A stretch of 43,296 bases of DNA, taken from positions 1 to 43,296 of the IMG/VR virus record IMGVR_UViG_3300008050_003461. The stretch is one strand, 5' to 3'. Positions 5,327-43,296 of the stretch are shown here, in pieces. The position numbers and the translations under genes are program-made. The notes beneath the pieces were generated by a model. The model saw only the letters and a list, made by a program, of their open reading frames with translations, was not told the origin of the DNA and ran no database searches. This DNA is from a virus. Each line of letters starts with the position of its first letter. Within the stretch, counting starts at the first letter, position 1.

Positions 5327-6045
5327 ATCAATCTCCAAATACTATAATCTTTATTTCCACCATTATATAAATCCAACCAAAATTTATCCTTTAACCTCGC
5401 TCTACTTTCTACCCACTCTTTGTTGTGTATTATTTTCTTTTCTTTTCCTATAAATCCCGCACAAATACAAAAAGTAGATGGACTAGAGATTATATAATCA
5501 CACTCGGTCATTGTATTAAAATCATAAGCATATTTGCTTCTATCGTTTGTATTCTCTCCCAAACTATAAGATATTTTTTCTTTTTGTAGATGCTCCTTAA
5601 CCAATCCAAACGCCGGTAATGTCTCATCGTCTGTAAAAATAATAATATTACTAACTCTATTCCTTATTGATTCTATTGCTTCTATGTAATAATTTCCACT
5701 CAAAATTGCGTTATTGTTCCATTCGTGAAAATCAGTACCCCTAAAATGTATAGCCACACTAATACCCTTGACATATTTTTTTATTTTAAGTTTGAAAACA
5801 TCTCTTGTTGGTATAGTATTCCAATCAAAAAATACTTCTCCTAAACAGGGTGGTAGATTGTGTGTTGGTGGTTTTTCTATTGTCCACATCTCACCAGAAA
5901 ACATTTTATATCCGTCCCAAGGAAAACAACACCACCTGTTAGAAAAATCTTTTGCTGCAAGTTGAACAAGGTTGTTGAAATATAAAATTCTATTACCAAA
6001 TCCCCAATCAGAAGGCATAGAATCTATTGATATTACTGGTTGCAT
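5323..6045 (-). CDS. Alpha-1,2-fucosyltransferase-like glycosyltransferase (GT11-like)
   Basis: About 240 residues from the ATG at 6045, chosen because a strong purine-rich ribosome site (GGAAAGAGGGTGG) lies directly upstream; a TTG at 6066 would add seven residues. VAIHFRGTDFHEW resembles the H-x-R-R-x-D donor motif of GT11 and related GDP-fucose transferases, and DFNTMTECDYIISSPSTF matches their second motif, where a conserved Ser-Thr-Phe follows an N/S-rich strand. The first Arg of the usual pair is replaced by Phe here, so donor choice may differ. The GDP-mannose 3,5-epimerase elsewhere in the window makes GDP-sugars a plausible donor class. It overlaps the gene upstream by 13 bases. Confidence 0.6.
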   Translation of the reverse strand: MQPVISIDSMPSDWGFGNRILYFNNLVQLAAKDFSNRWCCFPWDGYKMFSGEMWTIEKPPTHNLPPCLGEVFFDWNTIPTRDVFKLKIKKYVKGISVAIHFRGTDFHEWNNNAILSGNYYIEAIESIRNRVSNIIIFTDDETLPAFGLVKEHLQKEKISYSLGENTNDRSKYAYDFNTMTECDYIISSPSTFCICAGFIGKEKKIIHNKEWVESRARLKDKFWLDLYNGGNKDYSIWRLI

Positions 6046-6731
6046 TTCCACCCTCTTTCCTTCCAATAATCATACAAAAAAGAACGAATATCATTATGTG
6101 TTGGTGTTTTCCATGTTGCGTGTTGGTCTACACCAAGAGTGGGGTTGATATCGCCCCAATTATCTTTCTCTTGTATTGTTTGTGTAGGTAGATATGTTTC
6201 TATGCCACCGTGTATCTGACAAGAAGCACAAAAATGTATATCCTCTCCGTTATCAAAAGTAGGAGCAGGTTCTCTCCACATATAATTTATCCAAGAAGTT
6301 TTAAAAAACCAACAATGACCAACTATGTCACACTTAATGGGATTATCATTAAACATACCATCACATAACCCACACCCAAACCCATTATGGTTTCTACAAT
6401 TTGCACCAACAATACAATTTTTTTCATCACACAATTCTTTGCAATGAGAAAGCCAATTATTAGCAGGTATTGTATCATCATCAAAAATGGCAGTATATTC
6501 AGAATCAAATAATAGAGGTAAAGTAAATCTTCCGTGAAACTTAAAATTCATATCTTTTGAATGAACATGTTTAAATTTGTATTTGATTTTCAGTTTTGAT
6601 ATATCAATATGAGATTCGTTTTGATAAACATATACATCACCAATATTTGCTGTTTGGTTTGATATTGCATCTAGTTGTTCTTCAAGATTATCTCTTTTCC
6701 AAACAGTCAATATAATATTTATATCATCCAT
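6033..6731 (-). CDS. GT-A-fold glycosyltransferase
   Basis: About 232 residues from the ATG at 6731 (a TTG at 6746 gives a longer, less likely frame). It begins with a strand-helix pair (NIILTVWKRDNLEEQLDAI) typical of GT-A enzymes. TAIFDDDTIPANNW holds the Asp-x-Asp metal and nucleotide site near residue 88, and FDNGEDIHFCAS near residue 165 is the likely catalytic acidic motif. A Cys/Gly-rich stretch between them (NHNGFGCGLCDG) is unusual. It resembles glycosyltransferases scattered through T4-like marine phages and the C-terminal domain of exostosins. It overlaps both neighbours by a few bases, so it belongs to the same transcript. Substrates are unknown. Confidence 0.75.
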   Translation of the reverse strand: MDDINIILTVWKRDNLEEQLDAISNQTANIGDVYVYQNESHIDISKLKIKYKFKHVHSKDMNFKFHGRFTLPLLFDSEYTAIFDDDTIPANNWLSHCKELCDEKNCIVGANCRNHNGFGCGLCDGMFNDNPIKCDIVGHCWFFKTSWINYMWREPAPTFDNGEDIHFCASCQIHGGIETYLPTQTIQEKDNWGDINPTLGVDQHATWKTPTHNDIRSFLYDYWKERGWKCNQ

Positions 6732-7503
6732 AAAAATTTTCCACAATCATCTTAGTAGTATCGAATGAACCTTTTCTTGAACAATTTTCCTCATACCAAT
6801 CTCTACCGTTTTTTGATAAACTATTCCACTCTTCTTCGGTAATATTTTCTACAATGTCTAAAACATCTTCTGGTGTATTTGCTGTAAGATAGTGTACACC
6901 TTCTGTCATGGGTCTGTAAAAATCAAGACTGCAACCCTCTGTATAAATTGGAACTGTTCCTAATCCAAGATATTCAATTTCTCTATTGCACTTTGGACCA
7001 TATCCCGGCAATACCAATCCAAATTTTGAATGTCTCACCTTGTCTAAATATTCTTCTTGTGTGTATGGATACCTAGTATCAGCCGATGCTATAGGCATAC
7101 TAAACAATTCTACACCACACGACCAATCGTAACGAACTCTATTTTTGTGCTGTATTTGGTTTTCAATTTTTCCTAAAAATATAGAAGATATGTTTCTATC
7201 ATAATATGATAATATACCCTTCTCTATTTCTTTTTCTAACTTCTTAGGATGTCTAGACCAAAAAATCCAAGGAAAACAATTTTCACAATTTTTTTGCATA
7301 TTTGAAAACAGTGCATAATTCCACCTTTCTGGTAAAAAATCAAATCTGGCATACTCATATAAAAGAATATTACCCACACCACCTATCCAACAAAATCTAT
7401 CATTACTTTCTTCTATTTCACAGTAATCAGACTCTTCCCACATTCCCAATAACTCTCGGAATGTGTCTCCCTTATGACACGAATGGTTTAGATATATTTT
7501 CAT
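6724..7503 (-). CDS. Exostosin/GT47-like glycosyltransferase
   Basis: A 259-residue protein starting at an ATG at 7503. The C-terminal third carries RHSKFGLVLPGYGPKCNREI followed by EYLGLGTVPIYTEG, the signature by which exostosin-family (GT47) and some GT10-like GT-B enzymes bind a nucleotide sugar: 'S-K-F-x-L-x-P-x-G' then 'R-x-x-E-x-L-x-x-G-x-x-P-V/I'. The N-terminal half, with FPWIFWSRHPKKLEKEI, is not clearly assignable. It overlaps the next gene by eight bases and the previous one by 32. Donor and acceptor are not known; the family call is good. Confidence 0.75.
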   Translation of the reverse strand: MKIYLNHSCHKGDTFRELLGMWEESDYCEIEESNDRFCWIGGVGNILLYEYARFDFLPERWNYALFSNMQKNCENCFPWIFWSRHPKKLEKEIEKGILSYYDRNISSIFLGKIENQIQHKNRVRYDWSCGVELFSMPIASADTRYPYTQEEYLDKVRHSKFGLVLPGYGPKCNREIEYLGLGTVPIYTEGCSLDFYRPMTEGVHYLTANTPEDVLDIVENITEEEWNSLSKNGRDWYEENCSRKGSFDTTKMIVENFYG

Positions 7504-8383
7504 TATAATAAAAATTTCGCATGTTTGAATTATTATTAAATAATTCTTTCATTTTCTTTGCTACTTCGTTGTCAACATTCAACAATTTTTTGGTAATTTT
7601 TCCTCTAGCATCACTAGGTTCGCCAGCCCATTTTGTAACATCATTTTCTTCAATAATAGATAATACCATATTTTGCTGAGATGTCAATACAATACTGTTA
7701 TATTGATTGTTTTTTATTTCTGTGCATGGGAAACTTGCGTGTTTCTTTTGGTCGTCAATGGGACAATCTAAAAAATGTTTTTCTAAATAAGTTTTATCTT
7801 GTATATTTATAAAGGTATTCGTCATAAGATATTGGTCTTGTGCCCAAGGCAAATCTGATTTGTTGTTATAATAATCATCAAATGTTTTTGGTAGGTTTGG
7901 TATATGTTTTGGTTTGAATCCAGACAACCCACCCAACATATCACAACCCTGTTCGTGATAATGGTTGATATTAGACCTCATAGTTTGAATATGGTAATTA
8001 TCACTTTCTTCAAAAAACTTAGTGCAAAGAACCTCGTTTCTGTTTGGTAAAGAATCAACATCTCTTGTAAAGAAACATCCCACATCAGAATCCCAACAAG
8101 GCATCATTCTCCACAACATAGGTTCAGATGTGGTTTTATATTGTCTTTCTATTATTCTAACATCACAATTTGCAACCCTAAAAATTTCAAACAAAGGGTG
8201 GTATTGTGTACTATCTGTTGTATAAATTCTTACACTGATATTAGGATACAGTATAGAATTCATTATCAACAAACTAGGTATATTGTACCAATATCGTCTG
8301 GAATCCATTCTGTTTTCATCCCATATTCTGTGAGAATGCATAACAATAGGTTCAAATATACAATATGAAATAACTGTATTCAT
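7472..8383 (-). CDS. Putative glycosyltransferase with DxD motif
   Basis: A 303-residue protein starting with ATG at 8383, which overlaps the upstream stop (ATGA). The N-terminal part (RYWYNIPSLLIMNSILYP then VRIYTTD) and GCFFTRDVDSLPNRNEV, with a Asp-Val-Asp near residue 109, look like a GT8-like GT-A core with a metal-binding DxD. GGLSGFKPKHIP further on may be part of the acceptor site. I do not recognise a named family; similar proteins of unknown function occur in T4-like marine phages. Its position inside an unbroken run of glycosyltransferase genes is the strongest support for the role. Confidence 0.6.
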   Translation of the reverse strand: MNTVISYCIFEPIVMHSHRIWDENRMDSRRYWYNIPSLLIMNSILYPNISVRIYTTDSTQYHPLFEIFRVANCDVRIIERQYKTTSEPMLWRMMPCWDSDVGCFFTRDVDSLPNRNEVLCTKFFEESDNYHIQTMRSNINHYHEQGCDMLGGLSGFKPKHIPNLPKTFDDYYNNKSDLPWAQDQYLMTNTFINIQDKTYLEKHFLDCPIDDQKKHASFPCTEIKNNQYNSIVLTSQQNMVLSIIEENDVTKWAGEPSDARGKITKKLLNVDNEVAKKMKELFNNNSNMRNFYYNENISKPFVS

Positions 8384-9063
8384 TTTATATTTTCAATTTC
8401 AAAATTTTTATTTCTTCTTTCTTCAAACACTTTTCCGTCTTTTTGATACATTTCTTTATTTTCATTTCTTGCATGTAATTCGTCAAATGGTTCATTTGTC
8501 CATTCGTGTCTGAACAAGCAAACAGAGGAAATTGCGAGTTTATTTGACATAAGACATGATAATGTCATTTCATTATCACAAAATAATGAAGTATATGATG
8601 GATGGTATAAATAACCAAAAGATTCATACAAATTCCAACCAATGACAGGAAGAGTCATTAAAAAATCATTTTGTGGTCTAAGTCCATCATAAAACTTAAT
8701 CGCACCATTCATGTTTGGAAATTTATCGTTCATTCCTTCTACTATAATATCATCAAAAGCCTCAAAACAAGGAACCATATCATCAGATAATAACAAAATA
8801 ATGTCTGCGGTTTCCCCCTCAAGATTTGCATTACATGCTTCAACTTTTGTTTTAGAATTTCCGTAATGATATATTAAATCTACCTTTAAACCATCCAACC
8901 AGTTTCTAATTTCGGAAGTATTCATCGTAGAATCATCTTCGTCCATTGTTATAACAAACCTAATATCGTGCTTTCCTGATAGATATTTTATAGTTTTTTC
9001 AAGGACATGTTTAAATTTGTCTGGGCGATTTCTTGTTGGGAATTTTATCAATAATTTAGTCAT
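8380..9063 (-). CDS. Glycosyltransferase family 2-like protein
   Basis: A 227-residue protein, first gene of the sugar cluster in transcription order, 18 bases after regA. The start LLIKFPTRNRPDKFKHVLEK is typical of family 2 GT-A enzymes, which begin with a strand ending in P(T/S)xxRP. FVITMDEDD and ILLLSDDMVP carry acidic metal sites, the latter equivalent to the DxD. The late CLFRHEWTNEPFDELHARNE supplies an H-E-W segment where an acceptor-site base would lie. There is no clear ribosome site before the ATG at 9063, so translation may be coupled to regA. Substrates are unknown. Confidence 0.72.
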   Translation of the reverse strand: MTKLLIKFPTRNRPDKFKHVLEKTIKYLSGKHDIRFVITMDEDDSTMNTSEIRNWLDGLKVDLIYHYGNSKTKVEACNANLEGETADIILLLSDDMVPCFEAFDDIIVEGMNDKFPNMNGAIKFYDGLRPQNDFLMTLPVIGWNLYESFGYLYHPSYTSLFCDNEMTLSCLMSNKLAISSVCLFRHEWTNEPFDELHARNENKEMYQKDGKVFEERRNKNFEIENIK

Positions 9064-11170: not shown

Positions 11171-12136
11171 TTATTTTTTGTTGTTCACTTGTTCTTCTAT
11201 CCATTTATATGTTTTTTCAATTCCCTCTCTTAGTGGTTTAGAGGGAGACCATCCTAATTTTTCTTTGATTAGTCTATTGTCAGAATTTCTTCCGCGAACA
11301 CCCAACGGTCCCGTTTTATTGTCTATTGTAATGTCTTTTCCAGAAATGTCAATAATCATTTTCGCAAAATTATTAATACTAACCATTTCATCCGACCCAA
11401 CATTCAACGGTCCGTGTTCATCAGAATTCATCAATATCAACGAACCCTCGATACACTCATCAATATACAAAAAGGAACGAGTCTGTAACCCATCTCCCCA
11501 CACCTCTATTGTGCCACCGTCCTTCGCCTCAGCAACCTTTCTACAAAGAGCAGCAGGTGCTTTTTCTCTACCACCATCCCATGTTCCTTCTACACCAAAT
11601 ATATTGTGGTATCTAACTATCTTTACATCCAATCCGTGGTTCCTCATGTAAGACAAATACAGCCTCTCTGAGAAGAGTTTCTCCCAACCATATTCACTGT
11701 CTGGGGCTGCGGGATAAGCACTGTCCTCGGTGCAATTTGGATTGTCAGGGTCTAATTGATTATATTCAGGATAAACACACGCCGAAGAAGAATAAAACAC
11801 CCTGTTTACATTATTTTTGTAACACCTTTCAACCATATTCAAGTTCACTAATGAAGAATTATGCATAACCTTTGCATCATGTTCTCCTGTAAATATATAT
11901 CCAGCACCGCCCATGTCTGCTGCCAACTGAAATACTTCGTCAATTTGTCTATCAAATAAACTATCACATACTTCGGGATTTCGTAAATCACCCAACACAA
12001 ATCGGTCTGCCGGAGATTCACTAAAATCTGGGTATTTCACATCACAAACACACACCCAATGTCCCTGTTCTTTTAATATTTTTACTAAATGGCTTCCAAT
12101 AAAACCACCTCCACCGCATACGATAATATTTTTCAT
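11171..12136 (-). CDS. GDP-mannose 3,5-epimerase-like NAD-dependent epimerase
   Basis: A 321-residue extended short-chain dehydrogenase/reductase. GGGGFIGS (8-15) binds NAD, and YGWEK supplies the catalytic Tyr149 and Lys153. It is unusually close to plant GDP-mannose 3,5-epimerase: LAADMGGAGYI, SSACVYPEY (with the catalytic-type Cys120), RYHNIFG, GGREKAPAALCRK (Lys192 in the catalytic position), WGDGLQTRSFLYIDEC and GSDEMVSIN all match that enzyme, which makes GDP-L-galactose and GDP-gulose from GDP-mannose. The call is therefore more specific than a generic sugar epimerase. It has a strong AAGGAGG ribosome site inside the end of gene 45. It probably feeds the glycosyltransferase cluster downstream. 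Confidence 0.9.
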   Translation of the reverse strand: MKNIIVCGGGGFIGSHLVKILKEQGHWVCVCDVKYPDFSESPADRFVLGDLRNPEVCDSLFDRQIDEVFQLAADMGGAGYIFTGEHDAKVMHNSSLVNLNMVERCYKNNVNRVFYSSSACVYPEYNQLDPDNPNCTEDSAYPAAPDSEYGWEKLFSERLYLSYMRNHGLDVKIVRYHNIFGVEGTWDGGREKAPAALCRKVAEAKDGGTIEVWGDGLQTRSFLYIDECIEGSLILMNSDEHGPLNVGSDEMVSINNFAKMIIDISGKDITIDNKTGPLGVRGRNSDNRLIKEKLGWSPSKPLREGIEKTYKWIEEQVNNKK

Positions 12137-30643: not shown

Positions 30644-32329
30644 TTACCATCCATTTTGTATCGAAGAATCTCTATGTCCTTCACTGTACCATCTATCTTC
30701 TCCATCCCATACACTCTCGTTTTCCTCACTTCCATTATTTATAAAACCAAACGGAGACATATCCTCTTCTAGTTTGGTAATTTTATCTTCGTAAATAGAT
30801 GTCCGTATATCAATATTTGTAAGATTCATAAAATATTCTTGCCTAGACAACCAAGAAAACAGAACTAGAGACATCACCAAATCGTCTGTATGTCCGTCAT
30901 CTGCTTCAAAAGAATTTCTTTTTGCAACAAAAGTTATGAGTTCGTTGATTGTGTCTGCATCTTCTACGATGAGTTTATCTTCCTCTAATAGACTTTTTAA
31001 GACGGAGCAACCTAATTTTTTAACATAAGAAGTAGTTTTTACCCCCAAAAAGGAACCACCCGAACCAAAACCACCACTCACAGTCTGTCCTTTTCGTCCT
31101 TTTATAGATACCTGTATCACATTGGCATATTCTAAATCGGTGTATAGAACATCTGCTACCTGACTACCAATATCATTGATTTCCACCAAACAATAAGATT
31201 CGTTATATTGTTCACATACTCTTTTTATTACTGTAGGGTAAACCATAGGGGAAATTATATTATTTCTATATTTTGCTACTACTTTATATGGCATAGAAGA
31301 AAAATCAATAATTGTAAATGCACTATAATCTAGTCCCTGTCCTCTTGAAGTATCAACACAACAAACATACATGTGGTCTTCTTGGGGTTCTTCATAAATA
31401 TCTAATCCTTCTTTGTGTGATATTATGGGTTTTACCCATGCAAGAGATTTTAGTTTGTACGAAGATATAAGGGTATGTTGTGAACCGATGAAATCACATT
31501 CAAATTCTGACTGAAACTGTTGTTCGTTGGTATTTGCAACTGTTTCTTCTCTCCACTTATCATCTCTACAAGGACCACCAGGATACATCGGAACCTGTCT
31601 CCAATGAACCTCAATAGGAATATATTCATTTTTTCCTTCTTGTCCTTCTTCTTTTGTTGCACCCCTCCAATAATGATAAAACATATTCAAACCGTTAGGG
31701 GTCGATACCATCAAAACTTTCGTTGACTGTCCTGATGTAATTGTTGGATATACAGAACTAAAAAACTCTTCTGCTACATTATTTGGGACATGGGCAAATT
31801 CATCAAGGAAAATACAATTGAACGAACCACCACGAATAGCACTTGCAGATGTTGAAGAAGCAATAATCTTAGAACCATTTTCTAATTTAATATTTCCTTT
31901 ATTCCATTCTACAATTCCTTGTTGTATCCATAATGGTAAATATTCATATGCGAGTTTCATTCTACTAAGAATTTCTCTTGCTGTTGCTTGTTTATTTGCA
32001 AGAACAGCAACCGTCATATCTTGATTGAATAAAATATAATGAAGAAGGTATGCAATTATAGTTGTACTTTTTCCAGATTGCCTCGGAAGTTTCGCAATAA
32101 CAAATCTATTATTATGTACTTTATCTACAATTTCTTCTTGAAAATCATAAAGATTAAATGGAACCAAACCCTCATCAAGAGAAACAACCTTAATATATTT
32201 TTTTATAAAATAAATAGGGTCCTTAGAACATTTGATATATTCTTTTACCTGTTCCTCGGTAAACTTAACAGCAATTCCTGCCGCTTTGAGATTTGAATTT
32301 CCTAAATATCCTTCTTTTTTCCTACTCAT
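30644..32329 (-). CDS. gp17: Terminase large subunit gp17
   Basis: About 561 residues from the ATG at 32329 (T4 gp17, 610); an upstream frame to 32356 would use poor starts and overlap more. The packaging ATPase has Walker A LPRQSGKST (81-89) and Walker B CIFLDEFAH (172-180), then SVYPTITSGQSTKVLMVSTP with the coupling motif. The nuclease half has CVDTSRGQGLDYSAF, LVEINDIGSQVADVL and DDGHTDDLVMSLVLF, which carry the acidic metal site that cuts concatemeric DNA. It docks on the gp20 portal and fills the head. It overlaps gp16 by eight bases. Confidence 0.97.
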   Translation of the reverse strand: MSRKKEGYLGNSNLKAAGIAVKFTEEQVKEYIKCSKDPIYFIKKYIKVVSLDEGLVPFNLYDFQEEIVDKVHNNRFVIAKLPRQSGKSTTIIAYLLHYILFNQDMTVAVLANKQATAREILSRMKLAYEYLPLWIQQGIVEWNKGNIKLENGSKIIASSTSASAIRGGSFNCIFLDEFAHVPNNVAEEFFSSVYPTITSGQSTKVLMVSTPNGLNMFYHYWRGATKEEGQEGKNEYIPIEVHWRQVPMYPGGPCRDDKWREETVANTNEQQFQSEFECDFIGSQHTLISSYKLKSLAWVKPIISHKEGLDIYEEPQEDHMYVCCVDTSRGQGLDYSAFTIIDFSSMPYKVVAKYRNNIISPMVYPTVIKRVCEQYNESYCLVEINDIGSQVADVLYTDLEYANVIQVSIKGRKGQTVSGGFGSGGSFLGVKTTSYVKKLGCSVLKSLLEEDKLIVEDADTINELITFVAKRNSFEADDGHTDDLVMSLVLFSWLSRQEYFMNLTNIDIRTSIYEDKITKLEEDMSPFGFINNGSEENESVWDGEDRWYSEGHRDSSIQNGW

Positions 32330-32819
32330 CTTTAACCTCATCACTATCAACATCAATTATAGGTAATGAACTATGCTTATGTTTACTTCTAGATTGGTTT
32401 ATCAAATCTTGTAAATCATTCGTAGAACCAACATATATTGAATTGTTGGTTGTGTTATTTGTTATTTCCATTTCTTCTTTACGAATGGTTTTCATTTGTT
32501 GATGAAGATTCATTAGGTCTTTATTCATTTCGGAAACAGTCTTTAACATCTGAGATGCAACTTCATATGCTCTTGGTGCATCACTCTCCGTTGCAACATC
32601 AATAATACCATCAATAGCATCTTTCCCTGTGGATATAAGATTTTTGATATTTCCTCTTACTTGATTATAATCAATTTCTAAATCTTTATCCAGTTTTTCT
32701 TTAGATACAGGTAAATTTGTTTCTTTTTTTACAATGTTTGTTTCTTTTGCTTGTTCTTTTTCATAACTTACATCCAATGCATCAGACAACTTTTCATTAA
32801 CGCTTTTCTTTTCTTTCAT
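32322..32819 (-). CDS. gp16: Terminase small subunit gp16
   Basis: A 165-residue protein, the length of T4 gp16 (164). The central helical region IDYNQVRGNIKNLISTGKDA then DGIIDVATESDAPRAYEVAS matches the T4 family, where it forms a coiled-coil ring that recognises phage DNA and stimulates gp17. N- and C-terminal parts are charged and variable. It starts 15 bases after the gp15 stop and overlaps gp17 by eight bases, as the two subunits usually do. Confidence 0.93.
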   Translation of the reverse strand: MKEKKSVNEKLSDALDVSYEKEQAKETNIVKKETNLPVSKEKLDKDLEIDYNQVRGNIKNLISTGKDAIDGIIDVATESDAPRAYEVASQMLKTVSEMNKDLMNLHQQMKTIRKEEMEITNNTTNNSIYVGSTNDLQDLINQSRSKHKHSSLPIIDVDSDEVKDE

Positions 32820-32834
32820 ATTTTCACCATTTTT

Positions 32835-33749
32835 TTAAGAACTCGGTGGGTTATATGTCGCTGAAGGATATGTGTTTCCATAAGTATCAATATAATCCTG
32901 TGTCCATTGCCATGCACCATAAGTTGAACCTGTTGGTCCAATTGCACTAGCACCTCTAGTATATATGTTAGCAAATGTTGTGTAATCTGTAAATGTTCCA
33001 CCTGTAAGAGCAGAACCATAAGAAGGTCCACTAACACCAACATCAACTCTACTCAATGCACCTGTTGGACCTGAACGTAGATATTTCTCATCATCTGTTG
33101 TAAAGTCGAAGAATGTAGTTTCTGTTTTAAGTATAACACCACCCTTACGAATAGGTCCATACACATATGATTTTACTGTAAAATCAAGTTGAGTAGTAAT
33201 ATTTCTTCTTATATCAAATTCGCCTTCATAGTCTTCTTCAATATTAACACTATTCAAAATAATAGGAATATCAACCTTCTTATTAATATCATTAAAATTC
33301 ATAGTAACAGTAAATTCCGGAGTAAAGTAGGGAAGAACCTGTTCGATGATTTGCAGTGCATCATTCATATTTCTAACAAATCCATATAAAGAAAAATCAA
33401 AATTATATGGAACCTCTGCATAATTATATGACATCGCTCCACCGGTAGCACCTGATAAGTTGGTTCTCCTGCGATTCATTGTATTTCGTTTTCTTGCAGG
33501 GTCATATGCAATAGTTGTTATTTCAAAACCCATTCTGGGTAAAGTAATCATAACCTTTGTGGTGTCGGATATAGAACTACTTTCTTCTATTCTTCTAAGA
33601 AACTTTTCTTTTGGACCATAAGATAAAGGGACACGAATAAACTGTTTTGTTCCTCCTGAATTGGTATGTTCCAATCGAATATCGTTGAACAACGAACCAA
33701 AAGCAACAACTAATTTTCTAATAGATTCGTTATAGAATGGTCTAAACAT
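32835..33749 (-). CDS. gp15: Tail sheath stabiliser / tail terminator gp15
   Basis: A 304-residue protein (T4 gp15, 272). MFRPFYNESIRKLVVAFGSL then FNDIRLEH, VPLSYGPKEKFLRRI, ITLPRMGFEITTIAYDPARK and FDFSLYGFVRNMNDALQIIE are the family's conserved parts. A hexameric ring of gp15 caps the sheath and tube and attaches the tail to the head neck. The C-terminal 60 residues are Gly/Thr/Tyr-rich and extend beyond T4 gp15. It shares one base with the gp14 stop (TAATG). Confidence 0.94.
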   Translation of the reverse strand: MFRPFYNESIRKLVVAFGSLFNDIRLEHTNSGGTKQFIRVPLSYGPKEKFLRRIEESSSISDTTKVMITLPRMGFEITTIAYDPARKRNTMNRRRTNLSGATGGAMSYNYAEVPYNFDFSLYGFVRNMNDALQIIEQVLPYFTPEFTVTMNFNDINKKVDIPIILNSVNIEEDYEGEFDIRRNITTQLDFTVKSYVYGPIRKGGVILKTETTFFDFTTDDEKYLRSGPTGALSRVDVGVSGPSYGSALTGGTFTDYTTFANIYTRGASAIGPTGSTYGAWQWTQDYIDTYGNTYPSATYNPPSS

Positions 33750-34678
33750 TAATATCCCCCCTCACTGAAGGGGTCAGTTTCCGTAAAGTCGAATATATTA
33801 TCTGTGTCTACATCCCATTCTAAATCTTCATTATCACCAGAACTTTCATCATCCTCTGGGTCTTGAATAATTATAGTAGTTGTAGTGTCTGTTCCTGTTA
33901 GCAAATATTCCGCAGCAGAATCCATACCTACTATACTATCGTTTGAAGAACCTGTAGATAGAGTACCATCTAATCCTGTAACATATAAAAGTTTATTATC
34001 AGCATCCCAATTCGTAATTTGTCCTGTTACATCAGCATCTGCATATGTTCCACCACTAATGTTGGAAATTTGGAATACGGTCTCACCTTCAATAAAATTA
34101 GTATAAGTAGAAGAACTAACCTGTGTTCCTAATGAAAGTCTAATTTCATATACTTTTCTTTCTTCATCTATAATATCAACATCATCGATTCCTGTTTCAA
34201 TTTCCATAGACTCATCATATGCAAAGGTTTCACATGTTAATTTATAAACAAATAATTTACCCAACTGATAAAATGGATTTTCATGTTCTACAAAATTAAT
34301 TTCAAATAATGTTTTACTCAACGGAAAATAAACCAAATCACCTTCTCTTGGTCTATCAATAGATGTAAGAGTTGTAATCTCTTTTTGAAACCTTTTTTTA
34401 GATATAAGCAATTCTACTTTATCTTTTATTTGTAATCCATATTTAGATAATAAATCACCTTCACCCTCAAACCCATCAATAGACTGTATAAACATCTCCA
34501 ATTCAAATCCATTTTGAAATTTAGATATTCTATCTTCTCCAAAAATATCATCTTTGGATATAATATCCCTTGGAATGTATATCATATCTCTTCCCATTGT
34601 TTTTATAATCTCAATGGTAAGGTCTTCAATAACATCGTGTTCACCAGAATAGTCTTTAAAATATTTATTTCGAGCCAT
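33749..34678 (-). CDS. gp14: Neck protein gp14
   Basis: A 309-residue protein (T4 gp14, 256). The N-terminal half carries MGRDMIYIPRDIISKDDIFG, FELEMFIQSIDGFEGEGDLL, REGDLVYFPLSKTLFEINFV and FYQLGKLFVYKLTCETF, the pattern of T4-type gp14, which with gp13 completes the head-neck and joins it to gp15. The C-terminal 120 residues (SSSTYTNFIEGETVFQISNI and later an acidic tail) are longer than in T4 and appear domain-like. It lies between gp13 and gp15 as expected. Confidence 0.92.
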   Translation of the reverse strand: MARNKYFKDYSGEHDVIEDLTIEIIKTMGRDMIYIPRDIISKDDIFGEDRISKFQNGFELEMFIQSIDGFEGEGDLLSKYGLQIKDKVELLISKKRFQKEITTLTSIDRPREGDLVYFPLSKTLFEINFVEHENPFYQLGKLFVYKLTCETFAYDESMEIETGIDDVDIIDEERKVYEIRLSLGTQVSSSTYTNFIEGETVFQISNISGGTYADADVTGQITNWDADNKLLYVTGLDGTLSTGSSNDSIVGMDSAAEYLLTGTDTTTTIIIQDPEDDESSGDNEDLEWDVDTDNIFDFTETDPFSEGGY

Positions 34679-34680
34679 TT

Positions 34681-35484
34681 TTATCCAACCGTAAAGTCAA
34701 TAGGAAGTTCATATTCTAGTAATACTTTTTCTTCAATCCTTATTACATCTTCATTTGCTTCTGAGAATATTTCTGCACCTCTCATAGATACACCTCCCGG
34801 CATTTGTATACCTTCAAACTTTGACATATTTGCACCCCACTGTCTTTTAATAAGAGCAGTGACATATTCTTTTAAAAGTCTATCATTATATATTTCTATC
34901 CATGTGGTGGGGTCTAATTTAGAATATGCTTCTATTGTTAAATAAGTATCACCTGCGGTTACTTCCTCTGACCAATCCATATCAACATAAAGTCTATTTG
35001 TAACCTTATTAAATCTTATACTTTTCTCTGGTTCAAAAAGTTGTTCAATTAAACCAATATATCTTTTTGCAGAATCATAAGATGCAAGTCCCATTGATGT
35101 ACTATTTCCAAGATTTCTGTTAATTCCAAAATAGTCATTTAATGCCATTTGATATTTCACATTAAACATATTTGCTTGATTTTCACCAAACCTAAACAAC
35201 CTACGAACACTAAGAATATTTGAACCATTTGGTGGTCCTGTATAACCTGCCCCCGCAGTCAATCCAGATGTATTGATATATCCATTTGAAACATCGTCTG
35301 ATGTAACTTTGTGTGTATAATAGTGAAGTTCTACACCATCAAAATGTCTTTCCGCAAAAAATTGAAGTGCATCATCCACTCTTTCCACAGCCTGTTGATA
35401 ATCTACATTTATATCAACTACCGGTTTTCCTAGTCTTCTAAGTGCATATTCAATTAGTGTATCTGCTGATGTGGGTACTGCCAT
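34681..35484 (-). CDS. gp13: Neck protein gp13
   Basis: A 267-residue protein (T4 gp13, 309). TLIEYALRRLGKPVVDINVD at the start, QFFAERHFDGVELHYYTHKV, MALNDYFGINRNL and DPTTWIEIYNDRLLKEYVTA are family features, as is the end segment RIEEKVLLEYELP. gp13 sits under the portal and is needed to seal the filled head and attach the tail. It is the first gene of the neck-terminase-tail run and has a late-type box and terminator immediately upstream, which marks it as the start of a transcription unit. Confidence 0.93.
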   Translation of the reverse strand: MAVPTSADTLIEYALRRLGKPVVDINVDYQQAVERVDDALQFFAERHFDGVELHYYTHKVTSDDVSNGYINTSGLTAGAGYTGPPNGSNILSVRRLFRFGENQANMFNVKYQMALNDYFGINRNLGNSTSMGLASYDSAKRYIGLIEQLFEPEKSIRFNKVTNRLYVDMDWSEEVTAGDTYLTIEAYSKLDPTTWIEIYNDRLLKEYVTALIKRQWGANMSKFEGIQMPGGVSMRGAEIFSEANEDVIRIEEKVLLEYELPIDFTVG

Positions 35485-35555: not shown

Positions 35556-36023
35556 CTATATTTCCCTTTTCTTGGGTTTTGGTGATTCTGGAACATCATG
35601 AATATTTACTTTAATTTTTTTGATATCCTCTGTGAGCATTTGTTCTATATAATATCTTCGTGTGACTGGACTTTCTGCTTCGTCCGGTTCACTTTCTTCA
35701 TAATTAGAAAATCCTGGCATCTGTAAAGGACAACCAAGTTTTGGATAGTCCAATTTACTATATTCATCGCCCTCGGACACCAACCAAGTTCCTTTTCTGT
35801 CTCCACACCCACATCCACCACAGAAACTTTTGTTGCCGTCTTTTTCACTATTTTTGAGATATTCACATTCTGGTAAATCATTACCATCACCGAAACAACT
35901 AATAACCCTGAGTTGTTTTGTTGGTTTGTCTATTTTGTTGTTGGACAATCCACGAGATAATATAGACTTTGCAAAATTCTTTGCCATTCCTACTTTTTCA
36001 GAAATAGACTTTTTCTCACTCAT
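35556..36023 (-). CDS. Small Cys-rich protein of unknown function (possible metal-binding)
   Basis: A 155-residue protein I do not recognise by family name. Cys43, Cys53, Cys68, Cys71, Cys73 and Cys98 fall in SCFGDGNDLPECEYLKN, then SFCGGCGCGDRKGTW, then YPKLGCPLQMPG; this spacing would suit a zinc or iron-sulfur site. The first 35 residues are basic with Ala and Ser, the last 50 are charged. It lies between the giant GACC/LRR gene and gp13, beside a terminator. Comparable small proteins occur next to neck genes in marine T4-like phages, but no role is known. Confidence 0.68.
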   Translation of the reverse strand: MSEKKSISEKVGMAKNFAKSILSRGLSNNKIDKPTKQLRVISCFGDGNDLPECEYLKNSEKDGNKSFCGGCGCGDRKGTWLVSEGDEYSKLDYPKLGCPLQMPGFSNYEESEPDEAESPVTRRYYIEQMLTEDIKKIKVNIHDVPESPKPKKREI

Positions 36024-36062: not shown

Positions 36063-39000
36063 CTATTTATCAATGTCAACATCCAAAACTATAAATCTTC
36101 CACTTCCGTTCCATAAATTCATTATCTCATTATATTTATCCAAAGAAAGTGTTCCTGAAATATTTCTAGCAGAAACTTCTAATATATGTCCTATTGGATA
36201 ACTTTTTGGTTTTGTGAACACAGAATGACTAAACAATTCATCTATATCTTCTATTACTGTTCCGCTTATATTTAAATATTCAATATGCCCTTTATTGGAA
36301 GTAGAATAAGCATCTGCTGGTTTGGGCAATTCAATTTTTTTCAATTTACCATTACCACTCAAATCTATATGTTTTAGATTTAAGAATGCATTTCCATATT
36401 CATCATAATTTCCAAACTCACCAACATCCCCCCACTCTTCTTGGGAAGATACACCCAAATTAATAAAGGGAAGTTCTGTGTTTGTTATTACCAAGAAATT
36501 CAATTCTGTCATTTCTTTATTTCTACCAAGAGAAAATTCCATTTGATTGAGTTTTGTAGAATCTCTTAAAATGAGTTGTTTAAGTTTGACTGAATTTTTC
36601 AATTCTATACCTCTACCCAATGCACAACCAGACAAATCCAAATATTCCAACACAGGAACATTCAATATCAATTTTTTATTATTGTGTAAATCTTTATTGT
36701 TTGATGCAAACAAAGAAGTCAGTTTGTTATATTTTATATTTTTGGTATCTAGTGTTTTGATTTCATTATCAGACAACAACAACCGTTCAATGTTTGGTAT
36801 TTTATACATTGGGAAATCTTCTTGTGCATTAGGATACCCCGAACGAGCCAACCATTCTGTTCCAGAATTAGCACCTAATTTATTATCTTGAACCCAAATT
36901 TCTCTAATATTATTACTTTTTGGTATATCTAATCTATATAATTCATTATTATTTAAATGAAGGGTTTCTATTTTTGTCAAAGAAGAAGCATTAAAATATT
37001 GCATGGGTGTACAAATAACATCAACAGATGAATCCGCAGCAACAATAGTTTTTATTTTGTTTCTTCGTTTTTCTCTTTTTTCTAAATCTTTGGAAAGATA
37101 TACACCAATATAATAACCAACCATACCTGTACATTGTTGCCAATCATATTCATCATTATATTCGTTTCTACCGTTTCCGTATCTAGCAGGATTTATTACA
37201 AGTTTATTTAAGTTTGGTAACTCGGAGAAAAATACTTTAGAATGATAATATGGTTCAAATACATTTGACAAATCTACATCATCAGGTGTACGATATTTTC
37301 TAGTCAACCAAAGTTGAGTTATGCTATTTTTATATTTTTCAAAAACCTTATCATTTCCGTTTATCATTCCCCAATCAAAACGATTATTATTGTTATGAGA
37401 TTTTATGTTATAATATCCCTGAATATACTGATAACTTGTTGGGTCTGTTGGAAGAGGAAGTGCCTCTACCAATGGTTCATTTCTACCATCATGAATTTTA
37501 TATAAAATATTATTTTGTACATTATTAGATTTAGAATATAAAGATTCATCTGGAACATTTATTGGTTTATTTTCAATATCAACAAAACCAAAGAAGGGAA
37601 CAGAAAAACTCATATCGTTTGTGTTGGTTCTTCCAATTAACAATGGTTTGTATTTAATTTTTCTTTTATTCTTAAATGCAGCCGCAATAACCGCACAAGC
37701 ATCACAAGCACCACATTCTTCAGACCAAGTATCTCCAGAACAGGAACGGTCTGCACAATTCCAATGAATTGCATCATAGTGGTCTGGGTCTTGTCCTGGA
37801 CCATCTGTGGGCATTTGAACACATCCGATGTTCATACAAGGAACATCACCCATATAATAACCACCCAATTTTAGACACTGTTCCATAGGCCATCTAGCAC
37901 ACGTTTCCGTATGAGGATTACAACAAGAACCAAATGTAGGACAATGTCGACAATCACCATTGCCTTGATAATCAGATTCTAATCTACCTCTCAAACCAAA
38001 ACCTGCCATGATACCTTTTCCCATGTTACGCCATCCAAACCAATTCTCTCTATTTGAAGTTCTACATTCAGGACACCCTATACCACACGATGGATGTCGG
38101 TCTACACAATAGTCTATACCACCATATGCTCCGTTCTTTAAAGGTGTGCCAATATGCTCAGGAAAATTACCCCAAACTCCATTCATTGTATCACTAAAAT
38201 AGGGATGATTCCAAGGAGTTGACCATTCTCTGGGAAGAACATCCCAATGGTGAAGCATTCCCCCTTCATTATTTTGTCCAAAGTAACCGGGGTGGCAGGT
38301 CGAGTATGGTGGGGTACCGTACTTCGAGTAATAATAACTATCAAATTCAAAATACGAATTACATTCTTGCCACATATCACAAGGACGAGTGTTCCAAAAT
38401 GCACCACTGTACCAGATAGGCAATTCCTCATCGGGGTCAGGAAAATCGTAACTCCCAAAAGTACAATCGCCTTTTGGGAAAAATGTATAACAAGCATTTG
38501 AAACATTTGGGTCTGGATGTGACACACCATATTCTGAATTACATTCAGGATAATTTACTAAGCCTTCTGGGTCACCTTCCCATAGTGGACAATTAGGGCT
38601 GTCTAAGTAGTCATCAAGAACATTTGCTTTACAATCAATCCCACCTTCTGTCACACCATCATCCCTCAATATAGGTCCCCATTTATTTAACAAATCACAT
38701 TCTTCTTTTGTTACATAACAACAACTTGCTTCATAGAAAAAATCAGGTTCGCATGGTCCACCAAAGCCAGCACCAGGTAATGGCGGCCAAGGGCGGGTGG
38801 TAGTGTTGTGTGGGTCTAAGTGGGCACTTCTGTGACAATCACAACATGCACCCTTTCCTAAAAAATCTGCATCGCAGGCATCGCAACTGTAGTCGTCCTG
38901 TGTTGTATGTGAACAACTTTTTCCATAACTGTTGTATGGATTAACTCCTATTCTTCCACTATTATCAGACCAGATACAATGTGTTTCCATATTCGGATAT

Positions 39001-42000
39001 GAATAATCTTCTCTTCCAACATTTTTACAACTACTGCCTCTCCACGGAGGTGGTTCTTGTCCTGGTCCATATCCACAATCTGGTTGGCTCGATTGCAAAT
39101 TACATACATCACAACTATCAGGGGGTTGGGTGTCGGGGGTACCGTCAGAGCCATCTACTTTGCAATAACAACACGGAGCAATATCCGCAGTACATGCTAG
39201 TGAGGTTCCAAATCCACTACCGGCAACCCAATCATCACAAAATGTTGATGGTCCCATCCATACAGAATGACCGTCTTCAGACCAATTTAAATTATCACAT
39301 TCAACTTCACCTTCCTGACATGGGGCACATTCTTCTTTTGTTTTGTTATCATCACAACTTTCCGTGCCAGCCGCCGCACACAAAGGGGAACAACACGCAC
39401 CTGTTTCTGCATCACATGGGCATCCAGAACACCAAGTTGCAGGGAGATATTCATCTTCGCTAACACCACAATTACTTGGAAGAGTAGAACGAACGTGACA
39501 TCCTTCTTCTTGAAAATCAACAGTTTCTTGATAAGTTTCAAAAGTTAGACAACATCCATACTCTATATCTACACAATCATGTGTAGAATCTTCACAACAC
39601 GCACGACATACTGCTCCAAGATTTGTTATATCACCATCAGCAAAAGCATGAACAGTATAACCACAATAATTACAGTACACTTGTCCTTGCGTATATGTGG
39701 AGTCACCCTCATAACTAGTATCACAACTTGTCCCACTATATTGAGGTTTACCGCCGTCTGCAATGCAATCTGCTGGATGCAAATCTTCACATATAAAATA
39801 TCCATTGTCTAAATGTTTACAACATGGCCTACAATCGGGACAAACACTTGTTTCACAATCTACACATAATGAACCACATGGGTTATCTACACAGAGTGTT
39901 CCTTCCAACCAATTGTCAGAAGAACAAATTTTCTGTGTAGTCATAGAACATGTACCATCAACAGCACAACATGCTCCAATTAATCCTTGGTCATCACATA
40001 CGTATGTCTCTACCGAGCAAGTTGGGTCATCCGTGCAAGAGGTTGATGAACTCCACACAGCAGGCGCAAAACAACAATCGTTCTTGGGTACCCCTTCTGT
40101 ACAACTGTCTCCCATACAACAAATACCTTGGTGACAAACACTGTCATCAGCACACAATGTATCGTCACCGGCGTATACACCACCTAATGCCGTACAATCA
40201 TCAGGATGTAAAGTGTCGAGGCAGGTGCCATCTGTCATACAACAAGCACCTGTTGGGTCAACAACACTTCTTACTCCAGCAGGACAACAAGTCGTGTCAC
40301 ATCCATAGAAACATCCCGTACAGTTTGATAATTCTGTTTCTGTACAACTACCACCTGGTCCCTGTTGTAATTCTGTCGGACATTCAGAACCACTGCAACA
40401 TGCACCGACACAATCTTCGGGTTCTCCACAATCGCTTATTCCAGAACTTCTTATTTCTGCACATCCCGAAGATACACAAGGATTGTTTATATTCCAACTG
40501 TCTGAAACATTTTCAAAAGGTAAGCCATCACAACCTGTAAATGTTCCACCTAATATTTTACATTCGTTTTGTGTTATTGCTGGTATACATTTTCCGTGCC
40601 AACAACAACTTCCTCTATTTCTAGAATACGGACAATCACAATCTTCACACCTTCCATCGTTTATATTAACGTAAACTGATTCTGTATTATTAATACCAAA
40701 ATCTATTAAATAATCAGATGCAAAATCTCTATCTAAGTGTTGAGAAGAAACATCAAAAGAATCTAAACATCTGTCTGTACCATATTCCTTAATGGTTTTA
40801 TTTTCTTTATTATATCCTGCTATAATTACATCACTAGTTTTATTGCAACAAGGAACAGTATCACAATTATATTCACAATTCAATCCACTATAAAAAATAC
40901 CATTTAATTCTATACATTGTCCTCTACTAGTAAAAGAACAACCCAATTCATGACAACACGCACCAATTTCTTGAACCGAACAATTAAAACCTGGGGATTC
41001 GCAAGGTTGGTCAAATCTAATTCCAACATAATTTTCTGCTGGTGGACATGGGTCATTTTCTCCTATATTTTGACAACCAATATATGAACCGTCTCTTTGC
41101 CATATACAACAGGAATCTGTTACGAATATAGAATCCTTACAGGGATATCCTGTCTCTTCATTACATTCTTCGTCTTCATGAAAAAGCGTTGTTATATCTT
41201 TATTGTTTGCAGCAATTTGTTCGCAATGATATATTGTGGTATTATCACATTTTATAAATTCTCCGCTTGAAATGTTAAACTGACAACATGCACCATTACT
41301 ACCAAAACCACAATCTCCATAATATTCACAACAATCTATATCATCACAACTTGATTGTTCGTTACTCCACAATCCACCAAGAGCAATACATCTACTATTA
41401 GAAGTAACATAACAATTATAATCAACTATAAATGGTTTAACATCAGGGTCTTCCACACCAAAATATTCTGGAATACAACAAGTACCTTTTTTATTATCAA
41501 TAGGCGGAACGCAAAAAAATCCATCAACACTTGTTAAAGTACCACAAGTAGAACCAGACACCCACGCTGCACCACCACTTCCGCCAGGTGGTTCATTTAA
41601 ACAATCTCCACAGGTTATACCATCAGAACAATATGTTATACCATTGAACGGATGATTTCCAAAACAACAAGAACCTGTCGGCCAAGAGCAAGGCCAAGAT
41701 GAACTAAATGTACTTCCGTCCCCGCAAGAACTACCCGAACCACCCCAAAGACCATTAATTATAGAACAGTCGCCCGCAGTATATCCATTTGGATAATTTT
41801 TATCATCGGGACTCAGGCAATTTCCTTCAAGACAACACGAACCGTGTGCAGTTGCTCCCGTAACTCCACAACCACCCGCAGAATTTATTTCTGAACATGT
41901 GGATAGAGGTCCTCTAGGAACACCACCAACATTCAAACATTCACAGGGTTTTAAATCTTTACATACACCAGACCAACTATAATCACCACTAACACCTTTA

Positions 42001-42356
42001 ATATAATTTCCCATACAACATGCTTGTAAATAGGCGGTAGAATCTTCACAACAATCTGATGACAAACAATCGAAATCTTTACCTTTCCATTCACCATCCC
42101 TACATCCACAACCCTCTTCTGTTGTTATATAACAAAAACCATGTTCATCACAACAAACGCCATAAACAAAACCAGAATCAAATCTATATGAACAAGGATT
42201 ATCAGAACAAAGTTGACCTGCATAAAAATCACTATCGCTTGGACAGAGACTTAAAGATGTATCTGTACAATTACCCAGTGCATCACAACACGCACCCATT
42301 AAAGTTGTTGGGTCAACACCTATTCCACCAGACCTTGTTCTAAACTGAATACTCAT
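36063..42356 (-). CDS. Giant Cys-rich GACC-repeat protein with C-terminal leucine-rich-repeat domain
   Basis: A 2,097-residue protein. Residues about 20-1565 are an array of cysteine-rich modules; by hand count about 178 Cys fall in this part (roughly 11%). A typical module reads GACCMTDGTCLDTLHPDDC then TALGGVYAGDDTLC: a GACC/GSCC start, a short 'G-x-C' hairpin, a 'C-x-x-x-G-G' segment and a closing Cys. Modules vary widely in spacing. Residues about 1570-2097 hold a different domain with leucine-rich repeats such as IETLHLNNNELYRLDIP and LEYLDLSGCALGRGIELKNS. There is no signal peptide or membrane segment. It overlaps the upstream Cys-rich gene by ATGA. Place and build suggest a tail or head fibre, whisker or adhesin, but this is inferred. 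Confidence 0.9.
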   Translation of the reverse strand: MSIQFRTRSGGIGVDPTTLMGACCDALGNCTDTSLSLCPSDSDFYAGQLCSDNPCSYRFDSGFVYGVCCDEHGFCYITTEEGCGCRDGEWKGKDFDCLSSDCCEDSTAYLQACCMGNYIKGVSGDYSWSGVCKDLKPCECLNVGGVPRGPLSTCSEINSAGGCGVTGATAHGSCCLEGNCLSPDDKNYPNGYTAGDCSIINGLWGGSGSSCGDGSTFSSSWPCSWPTGSCCFGNHPFNGITYCSDGITCGDCLNEPPGGSGGAAWVSGSTCGTLTSVDGFFCVPPIDNKKGTCCIPEYFGVEDPDVKPFIVDYNCYVTSNSRCIALGGLWSNEQSSCDDIDCCEYYGDCGFGSNGACCQFNISSGEFIKCDNTTIYHCEQIAANNKDITTLFHEDEECNEETGYPCKDSIFVTDSCCIWQRDGSYIGCQNIGENDPCPPAENYVGIRFDQPCESPGFNCSVQEIGACCHELGCSFTSRGQCIELNGIFYSGLNCEYNCDTVPCCNKTSDVIIAGYNKENKTIKEYGTDRCLDSFDVSSQHLDRDFASDYLIDFGINNTESVYVNINDGRCEDCDCPYSRNRGSCCWHGKCIPAITQNECKILGGTFTGCDGLPFENVSDSWNINNPCVSSGCAEIRSSGISDCGEPEDCVGACCSGSECPTELQQGPGGSCTETELSNCTGCFYGCDTTCCPAGVRSVVDPTGACCMTDGTCLDTLHPDDCTALGGVYAGDDTLCADDSVCHQGICCMGDSCTEGVPKNDCCFAPAVWSSSTSCTDDPTCSVETYVCDDQGLIGACCAVDGTCSMTTQKICSSDNWLEGTLCVDNPCGSLCVDCETSVCPDCRPCCKHLDNGYFICEDLHPADCIADGGKPQYSGTSCDTSYEGDSTYTQGQVYCNYCGYTVHAFADGDITNLGAVCRACCEDSTHDCVDIEYGCCLTFETYQETVDFQEEGCHVRSTLPSNCGVSEDEYLPATWCSGCPCDAETGACCSPLCAAAGTESCDDNKTKEECAPCQEGEVECDNLNWSEDGHSVWMGPSTFCDDWVAGSGFGTSLACTADIAPCCYCKVDGSDGTPDTQPPDSCDVCNLQSSQPDCGYGPGQEPPPWRGSSCKNVGREDYSYPNMETHCIWSDNSGRIGVNPYNSYGKSCSHTTQDDYSCDACDADFLGKGACCDCHRSAHLDPHNTTTRPWPPLPGAGFGGPCEPDFFYEASCCYVTKEECDLLNKWGPILRDDGVTEGGIDCKANVLDDYLDSPNCPLWEGDPEGLVNYPECNSEYGVSHPDPNVSNACYTFFPKGDCTFGSYDFPDPDEELPIWYSGAFWNTRPCDMWQECNSYFEFDSYYYSKYGTPPYSTCHPGYFGQNNEGGMLHHWDVLPREWSTPWNHPYFSDTMNGVWGNFPEHIGTPLKNGAYGGIDYCVDRHPSCGIGCPECRTSNRENWFGWRNMGKGIMAGFGLRGRLESDYQGNGDCRHCPTFGSCCNPHTETCARWPMEQCLKLGGYYMGDVPCMNIGCVQMPTDGPGQDPDHYDAIHWNCADRSCSGDTWSEECGACDACAVIAAAFKNKRKIKYKPLLIGRTNTNDMSFSVPFFGFVDIENKPINVPDESLYSKSNNVQNNILYKIHDGRNEPLVEALPLPTDPTSYQYIQGYYNIKSHNNNNRFDWGMINGNDKVFEKYKNSITQLWLTRKYRTPDDVDLSNVFEPYYHSKVFFSELPNLNKLVINPARYGNGRNEYNDEYDWQQCTGMVGYYIGVYLSKDLEKREKRRNKIKTIVAADSSVDVICTPMQYFNASSLTKIETLHLNNNELYRLDIPKSNNIREIWVQDNKLGANSGTEWLARSGYPNAQEDFPMYKIPNIERLLLSDNEIKTLDTKNIKYNKLTSLFASNNKDLHNNKKLILNVPVLEYLDLSGCALGRGIELKNSVKLKQLILRDSTKLNQMEFSLGRNKEMTELNFLVITNTELPFINLGVSSQEEWGDVGEFGNYDEYGNAFLNLKHIDLSGNGKLKKIELPKPADAYSTSNKGHIEYLNISGTVIEDIDELFSHSVFTKPKSYPIGHILEVSARNISGTLSLDKYNEIMNLWNGSGRFIVLDVDIDK
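37661..42297. repeat. Array of divergent GACC cysteine modules (coding repeats)
   Basis: The modules begin with GACC, GSCC, GTCC, GICC or similar and recur every 35-70 residues through the first three quarters of the giant protein. They are diverged at DNA level, so the repeat is old or under varied selection rather than a recent tandem copy. Confidence 0.8.
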
Positions 42357-43296
42357 TTATTATCTTTCCTAGTTTGTCCACCTGATGATGATGTATTCCA
42401 ACCCTGATTTTCTTTTATGTTGCTTTTTTTCCATCTACCACCTAACGCATTTTCACAGTAATTTTTATCACACCCCATTATAATTGACCCATCCTGTAAT
42501 CTACATCTTCCTGTTGTATTATTTATATTAGTTCCTATAGAAAAATTATTAAAAATATTATCTGTTTGTATAATATTATTTCCATGTAACCCCTTACAGT
42601 TTATTTCTTCACATTTTATATCGGTATATACAACACCACCAAATGCATTAGATAAAGTTTCTTCTTGTCCTTTGGGTATTGTCATATTTATACAACTTTT
42701 TCCTAAAAGATTCTTATTAGACCCCAAACATATTGAAATGTTTTGTAATTTAATATTTCCTTTTCCGCTAAATGTATCACAAATACCGGACATACCACCA
42801 TTAGGAATAAATCTTTCAACGTATGAAAGACCTCTGTCTAAAACGTATTCGTATATATCCGAAACCTTAATTTCATTTTTACCATCACATATTACACCAA
42901 ATAATTTTGGTAGCCTGTTTGGTGTGATTATTCTTTTTCGGAAAATTATTTCTTCAACAACATCATCAGAATTTCTAAATGGGAATTGATTACAAACATC
43001 ACAATCTACCGCCTCTGAACCAATACAAGCACTATTCGCTCCCATAAATCCACCACCTTGTGCTAAACATTCAAGCGATGTCATAGGACCTTGACATGAT
43101 TCGGCAGAAAGACAACACGCACCAGTTACTACTACTTCTTCACAATCTATAAGCGAACAGAAACTGCCATCTCCATGATATACTCCTAGTGCAGCACAAT
43201 CTTCACGAACCATGTCATTTACACATTCAATAAACTCCCCACTCTCATATAGACAACATGCACCTACTGCTAATTCTCCACACGGATTGGTACAAG
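42353..43296 (-). CDS. GACC-repeat protein, 3' part (runs off right edge)
   Basis: The frame is open from the window edge to the stop at 42353; reading from the edge gives CTNPCGELAVGACCLYESGE and then CVNDMVREDC, so the first Met at 43213 is internal and not a start. Two GACC modules at the N-terminal side are followed by about 190 residues of different make-up (EIIFRKRIITPNRLPKLFGV and later Asn-rich NNIIQTDNIFNNFSIGTNIN) and a last Cys-rich unit TGRCRLQDGSIIMGCD ending in Gly-Gly-Arg-Trp. It overlaps the giant gene by ATGA, so the two are one operon. It is probably a related fibre-type protein; length and start lie outside the window. Confidence 0.85.
   Translation of the reverse strand, partial: CTNPCGELAVGACCLYESGEFIECVNDMVREDCAALGVYHGDGSFCSLIDCEEVVVTGACCLSAESCQGPMTSLECLAQGGGFMGANSACIGSEAVDCDVCNQFPFRNSDDVVEEIIFRKRIITPNRLPKLFGVICDGKNEIKVSDIYEYVLDRGLSYVERFIPNGGMSGICDTFSGKGNIKLQNISICLGSNKNLLGKSCINMTIPKGQEETLSNAFGGVVYTDIKCEEINCKGLHGNNIIQTDNIFNNFSIGTNINNTTGRCRLQDGSIIMGCDKNYCENALGGRWKKSNIKENQGWNTSSSGGQTRKDNK

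Follow-up and report, generated by a model that had tools for sequence, protein, structure and literature searches.

A giant GACC-module protein with a leucine-rich-repeat end, a probable host-attachment protein of an uncultured marine T4-like phage

The window analysed here is one viral record of 43,296 bases, IMG/VR record IMGVR_UViG_3300008050_003461, taken over its whole length. A single minus-strand gene, 14.5% of the window, encodes a giant protein that combines cysteine-rich GACC modules with a C-terminal leucine-rich repeat (LRR) (Table 1). We consider it probable that this giant is a virion-associated host-attachment protein, a tail or baseplate fibre or an adhesin, of an uncultured marine T4-like myovirus. 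The original prediction had suggested such a role; we infer it, and with it the presence of the protein in the virion, from the slot of the gene in a host recognition cluster, from the swapping of C-terminal ends among related phages and from a tail-fibre domain in one relative. For an extracellular sensor, the other function first suggested, no evidence emerged.

Integrity and conservation of the giant gene

The reading frame opens with an ATG at 42356 and continues for 2097 codons, with no internal stop, to 36063; these are exactly the limits predicted for a single gene covering 15% of the window. The product has 181 cysteines, 8.6% of its residues, nearly all of them within residues 21–1545, so that the richness in cysteine noted earlier holds and only the count of about 178 is amended.

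Full-length orthologues are present in L088 and L089, a near-identical pair whose protein has 2124 residues and 190 cysteines. Between the window and L088, 165 of 177 cysteines (93%) are kept against an overall identity of 52% (Fisher p about 5e-35); the corresponding values are 83% for tryptophan, 73% for glycine and 41% for histidine. The non-synonymous divergence (dN) is 0.41 and the synonymous divergence (dS) about 1.6, the latter near saturation, which makes the dN/dS ratio approximate. We conclude from these sequence comparisons that the giant is under purifying selection and that its frame is a functional gene. A repetitive composition in a metagenome contig might be taken as a sign of low-constraint repeat expansion or of an assembly artefact. 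However, the C-terminal third recurs at 100% identity over 545 queried residues in the independent contig L003, and this, with the near-identity of L088 and L089, the purifying selection and the cysteine conservation, already refutes such an explanation, to which we assign virtually no probability.

The GACC module and the C-terminal leucine-rich repeat

The giant contains eight literal GACC motifs, 15 G[ASTVI]CC motifs and 27 CC pairs. In 500 shuffles of the same composition, G[ASTVI]CC occurred 0.46 times on average and three times at most, against the 15 observed. The consensus of the module over the phage loci is G-x-C-C-x(4-5)-C-x(7-8)-C-x(12-13)-C-x(3-4)-C, with which the giant agrees. 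Five modules have the strict six-cysteine spacing, four are found at E<0.01 by a hidden Markov model of the module, and what remains of the region is cysteine-rich sequence that is degenerate or of another type; the 'dozens of GACC modules' first described were therefore an overstatement.

Profile searches and structure prediction, proposed earlier as a check on both the module and the C-terminal domain, yielded a compact module without a PDB match and an LRR fold. With 56 phage modules as the alignment, AlphaFold produced a compact 44-residue strand-strand-helix-strand unit with a predicted local distance difference test score (pLDDT) of 89.6, and the GACC module is by prediction a fold unit. 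A Foldseek comparison of this single-module model with the PDB gave no significant match, a 44-residue query being a weak test.

The LRR domain reported at the end of the protein is confirmed. Pfam LRR_4 matches the C-terminus with E=1.2e-6, at 29 bits against a curated cut-off of 27, and an AlphaFold model of the C-terminal 538 residues, built from eight sequences, has pLDDT values mostly of 80–95 over the repeat (mean 70 overall), with mostly poor confidence in the region before it. Foldseek matched the model to PDB LRR proteins of many kinds, SDS22 and LRRTM2 among them at E≤1e-3 (best 1.7e-4), and to LRR proteins of viruses too. In the model, the LRR fold of this end is clear, and the fold does not reveal what the ligand is. 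The phrog_7816 match on the giant is to an LRR family of unknown function. The sole NCBIfam match is a sub-threshold LRR match to XopL; we rejected a relationship to XopL, the match being due to the repeat alone. With phmmer, the whole giant had no match in the PDB.

The locus and the exchange of C-terminal ends

Downstream of the giant the order is a gene for a 155-residue protein, then gp13, gp14, gp15, terminase and sheath. The prediction that the giant lies in the position of T4 genes 12 and wac, before gene 13, is thus upheld, with the 155-residue gene in between. The likeness does not extend to sequence, no Pfam or PHROG profile of T4 gp12 or fibritin having matched the giant at E≤1. The window stops short of the baseplate block, and the baseplate side is known from longer relatives. 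In G002, baseplate wedge genes lie upstream of the cluster; in a 123-kb relative, baseplate wedge genes (phrog_261 and phrog_219) and a tail-fibre gene (phrog_4492) precede several collagen-like and GACC proteins in a row, after which come the 155-residue gene and gp13. In cultured cyanophages the genes in the slot before gp13 are labelled 'tail fiber' or 'virion structural protein', and PMC7029224 gives the name 'host recognition cluster' to the variable island that pelagimyophages and cyanomyophages carry between VrlC and gp14. Gene order places the giant in this host recognition cluster, as known from marine T4-like phages. The giant's ATG and the stop of the frame upstream, which encodes a second GACC protein, overlap as ATGA (42356..42353), and the two genes are therefore probably translationally coupled.

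A gp14 search gathered 80 relatives, and the slot is visible in 39. It holds a cysteine-rich protein in 36 of the 39 by our filter, and in 37 counting the orthologue in L006, which misses the filter solely through its single CC. The proteins adjoining the 155-residue gene mostly begin with MSIQFRTRS or something close to it, and their N-terminal BLAST matches run from the first residue of either protein. At the other end they differ: an LRR is found in the window's group and in L027, L029 and L037, and weak matches to Lcl_C (PF07603) in seven. The window's LRR is joined to a different N-terminal part in L010 (E 1e-82), and a domain inserted before the LRR of L037 matches tail-fibre and baseplate-wedge/tail-fibre-connector families with E about 1e-10. 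Such a pattern, in which the base is shared and the ends can be exchanged, is that of phage adhesins. Lcl_C-like ends were seen in several proteins of the host recognition clusters of T4-like phages, at L054:2-2305 and 6008-8557 and in many relatives.

Several points count against an attachment role. A tblastn search of 50,697 records of cultured phages with the giant, three relatives and the 155-residue gene gave no match, and virion proteomics by homology consequently has no route. No annotated fibre family was matched among the giant and its relatives outside the L037 insert, and neither a trimerisation motif nor a chaperone was identified for the giant. LRRs are found in non-structural proteins too. 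The Lcl_C matches have best E values of 1e-3 in the slot proteins and 2e-5 in a neighbouring protein, below cut-off; BLAST of cysteine-rich stretches with composition correction off may inflate matches; and the approximate dN/dS ratio belongs here as well.

The GACC module in cellular genomes

In a scan of 84,980 bacterial and archaeal genomes the module matched 57 loci, 51 of them titled Planctomycetota, Phycisphaerae, Phycisphaerales or related; one of the other six, L106, is titled Alphaproteobacteria and is classed with Phycisphaerae in the genome collection. The alignment used for the scan included two rows with artificially altered tails. Matches were confirmed against its unaltered first row, one of the modules of the window's giant, and a further profile, made from natural sequences alone, gave the same result. 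In the genome of one marine member of the Phycisphaerales, a profile built from phage modules alone found at least 149 copies. The same profile found copies in 14 of 81 sampled Phycisphaerae, and we regard it as specific because the other 67 had none. Some marine Phycisphaerales, such as the source of L107, thus contain at least 100 modules and most others of the class none, a large, patchy expansion of secreted-type proteins.

The cellular GACC proteins are large and repetitive, and 44 of 50 show a hydrophobic segment at the N-terminus in a hydrophobicity test, as against three of 36 phage GACC proteins, all three from an over-extended start. Their sequences mark the cellular proteins as apparently exported. 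In agreement with the original prediction, the giant has no signal-peptide-like segment at its N-terminus by this test, which is not a trained predictor.

A proposed mode of action and its alternatives

We propose that the giant is expressed late, from the structural operon and alongside the second GACC protein. Having no signal peptide, it would be synthesised in the reduced state in the cytosol, and its conserved MSIQFRTRS end may attach it to the tail during assembly. After lysis, paired cysteines would oxidise to form a rigid, protease-resistant stalk made up of six-cysteine units of roughly 44 residues each and of cysteine-rich sequence related to them; we infer oxidation at this stage because the module occurs in apparently exported cellular proteins and because the cysteines are conserved. 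The LRR would then contact the host surface, a role suggested by the swapping of C-terminal ends, since other phages carry a different end there, Lcl_C-like in several.

Folding after lysis, metal binding and a phage route to disulfides had all been put forward to account for the cysteines. T4-like virions are assembled in the cytosol. That, and the CGGCGCGD cluster of the neighbouring 155-residue protein as a potential metal site, would suit a giant whose cysteines bind Zn, Fe or Fe-S in the cytosol and which acts as an intracellular factor, such as an assembly scaffold or metal store. We hold this to be quite improbable: bacterial proteins with signal-peptide-like N-termini use the same module, histidine is kept far less often than cysteine between the window and L088, and the six-cysteine spacing of the unit is even and fixed. 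Since apparently exported proteins share the cysteine pattern and histidine conservation is low, metal binding is less likely than a disulfide-bonded protein folding after lysis, and of the earlier proposals it is post-lysis disulfide formation that we favour.

The protein might also be a secreted or lysis-released matrix or adhesive protein, oxidised outside the cell and acting on debris, particles or competing phages. Its composition is typical of extracellular matrix proteins, it has no signal peptide, and some genes within host recognition clusters do not encode virion parts (PMC7029224). Set against this are the coupling and the synteny with baseplate and neck genes, the shared N-terminus with swapped ends and the tail-fibre domain in one relative, and we think such a role unlikely. 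A virion-associated attachment protein remains our preferred reading.

Neighbouring genes

The features of the locus are collected in Table 1. The L088 counterpart of the second GACC protein begins with collagen-like GPTGPT repeats. The upstream neighbours of the giant's orthologues at L088:177-3677 and L009:1-2280 resemble invertebrate-type (destabilase) lysozyme in their C-terminal part, with the motifs ESxC, CGPYQI, YMRRY and HNGGP; the likeness comes from phmmer for L088 (PDB 8bbu, E=5.6e-4) and from the motifs only for L009. This neighbour would be a collagen-like, GACC and i-type-lysozyme-like protein, and the window's copy, P0002, lacks the part that resembles lysozyme.

The 155-residue protein (CGGCGCGDRKGTWL) lies between the giant's slot and gp13 throughout the clade and might provide a metal site or an assembly factor; no relative was found in cultured phages by tblastn or in the bacterial genomes scanned. 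In L157, a GACC-rich giant of 1363 residues with 156 cysteines (2869-6957) lies inside the baseplate block near a gp25-like gene, outside the fibre cluster. L088 (15627-18869) and L089 (12470-16360) have two tail-sheath-like genes in tandem, both products starting MPFSVSPSVTVIEKDLS, and the window has one. At 11171-12136 the window encodes a nucleotide-sugar epimerase (phrog_540, 2e-80), possibly a surface-sugar gene, near clamp loader and exonuclease genes.

Table 1. Features of the giant gene and its surroundings in the window
Feature	Position	Strand	Remarks
Second GACC protein, C-terminal part	42353..43294	-	313 residues, truncated at the window end; its stop and the start of the giant overlap as ATGA
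Giant GACC/LRR protein gene	36063..42356	-	2097 residues plus stop; full-length orthologues L088/L089, partial orthologues L003, L005, L006, L087
Conserved N-terminus MSIQFRTRS...	42297..42356	-	Common to same-slot proteins of other phages; proposed virion anchor
Cysteine-rich region, residues 21–1545	37722..42296	-	175 Cys; GACC modules and degenerate relatives; proposed disulfide-braced stalk
GACC module, strict six-Cys spacing	42186..42305	-	TLMGACCDALGNC...
GACC module, strict spacing	40857..40973	-	QEIGACCHELGC...
GACC module, strict spacing	40128..40259	-	DPTGACCMTDGTC...; the modelled one, pLDDT 89.6, strand-strand-helix-strand
GACC module, strict spacing	39870..39986	-	GLIGACCAVDGTC...
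GACC module, strict spacing	37815..37940	-	PTFGSCCNPHTETC...
Beta-rich conserved region between stalk and LRR, residues 1560–1788	36993..37679	-	Model confidence low to medium
LRR C-terminal domain, residues about 1789–2097	36066..36992	-	Pfam LRR_4, model, Foldseek; putative receptor-binding tip
155-residue protein	35556..36023	-	Six conserved Cys, CGGCGCGD motif; adjoins gp13 in 51 relatives
gp13-like head-tail adaptor (gp13/Ad2)	34681..35484	-	phrog_211, 2e-32
gp14-like neck protein	33749..34678	-	PF11649, 9e-38
gp15-like tail sheath stabiliser	32835..33749	-	PF16724, 1e-68
Terminase large subunit (gp17)	30644..32356	-	≤58% identity to marine Synechococcus phages

The host and wider significance

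Sharing of the module suggests a link to Planctomycetota and is no proof of infection. Because the module is almost confined to this phylum, with tens to more than 100 copies in some genomes, we put forward, as a doubtful proposal, that Planctomycetota are the hosts of the phages and that the GACC module was acquired from surface proteins of the host, the fibre adhering by like-to-like contacts or mimicry of a host GACC coat and the LRR or Lcl_C end giving specificity. Two results count against such a host. Searches of 392 Planctomycetota genomes by terminase or DNA revealed no GACC-carrying phage relative, and the guanine-plus-cytosine content is 33% as against 52–71% in three cellular GACC loci. 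A metagenome-assembled genome of the Planctomycetota set, G271, includes T4-like phage contigs without GACC modules, which are uninformative for the GACC family. The gene psbA, among the cyanophage core genes (PMC3037559), is absent from ten related phage records, most of them incomplete, and because of this absence the GACC phages are probably not cyanophages, a point in favour of the Planctomycetota proposal.

Should the giant be a virion fibre, marine T4-like phages would make attachment stalks from a disulfide module without an oxidising export route, and cytosolic solubility followed by post-lysis maturation would become a testable question. The module ties the GACC phages to Planctomycetota, a phylum about whose phages little is known, and supplies a ready host hypothesis. 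A large class of giant genes that had stood unannotated in ocean viral metagenomes also receives a name, and modelling defines a small, cysteine-rich unit of folding that has no PDB match.

Comparison with known systems

The giant's position and its probable role belong to a kind already known. What is new is a stalk of disulfide modules in a phage attachment protein, together with the LRR end and the tie between the module and Planctomycetota; in the literature searched, mostly without subscription journals, we found no papers on any of these three, nor any dealing with GACC modules or with phage fibres that contain LRRs. The main texts of PMC7029224 and PMC3037559 mention no cysteine-rich or leucine-rich proteins.

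The closest counterparts by position are the fibres of the host recognition clusters of pelagimyophages and cyanomyophages (PMC7029224), which like the giant are encoded between the baseplate block and gp13/gp14 in a variable multi-gene cluster. Those clusters feature collagen-like and YHYH-type domains, and the GACC relatives collagen-like repeats and a tail-fibre domain; the fibres of the cultured phages, however, have no sequence match to the giant. T4 gp12, the short tail fibre, and fibritin (wac) share its place directly upstream of gp13 but differ from it in architecture as well as in profile. The proteins with Lcl_C-like ends in several relatives have the same slot and the same N-terminus, whereas the window giant has an LRR at that end. 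The GACC giants of Planctomycetota (Phycisphaerae) are built from the same six-cysteine module and are similar in size and in their numbers of cysteines and GxCC motifs; they begin with signal-peptide-like N-termini, whereas the phage giant has none and ends in an LRR.

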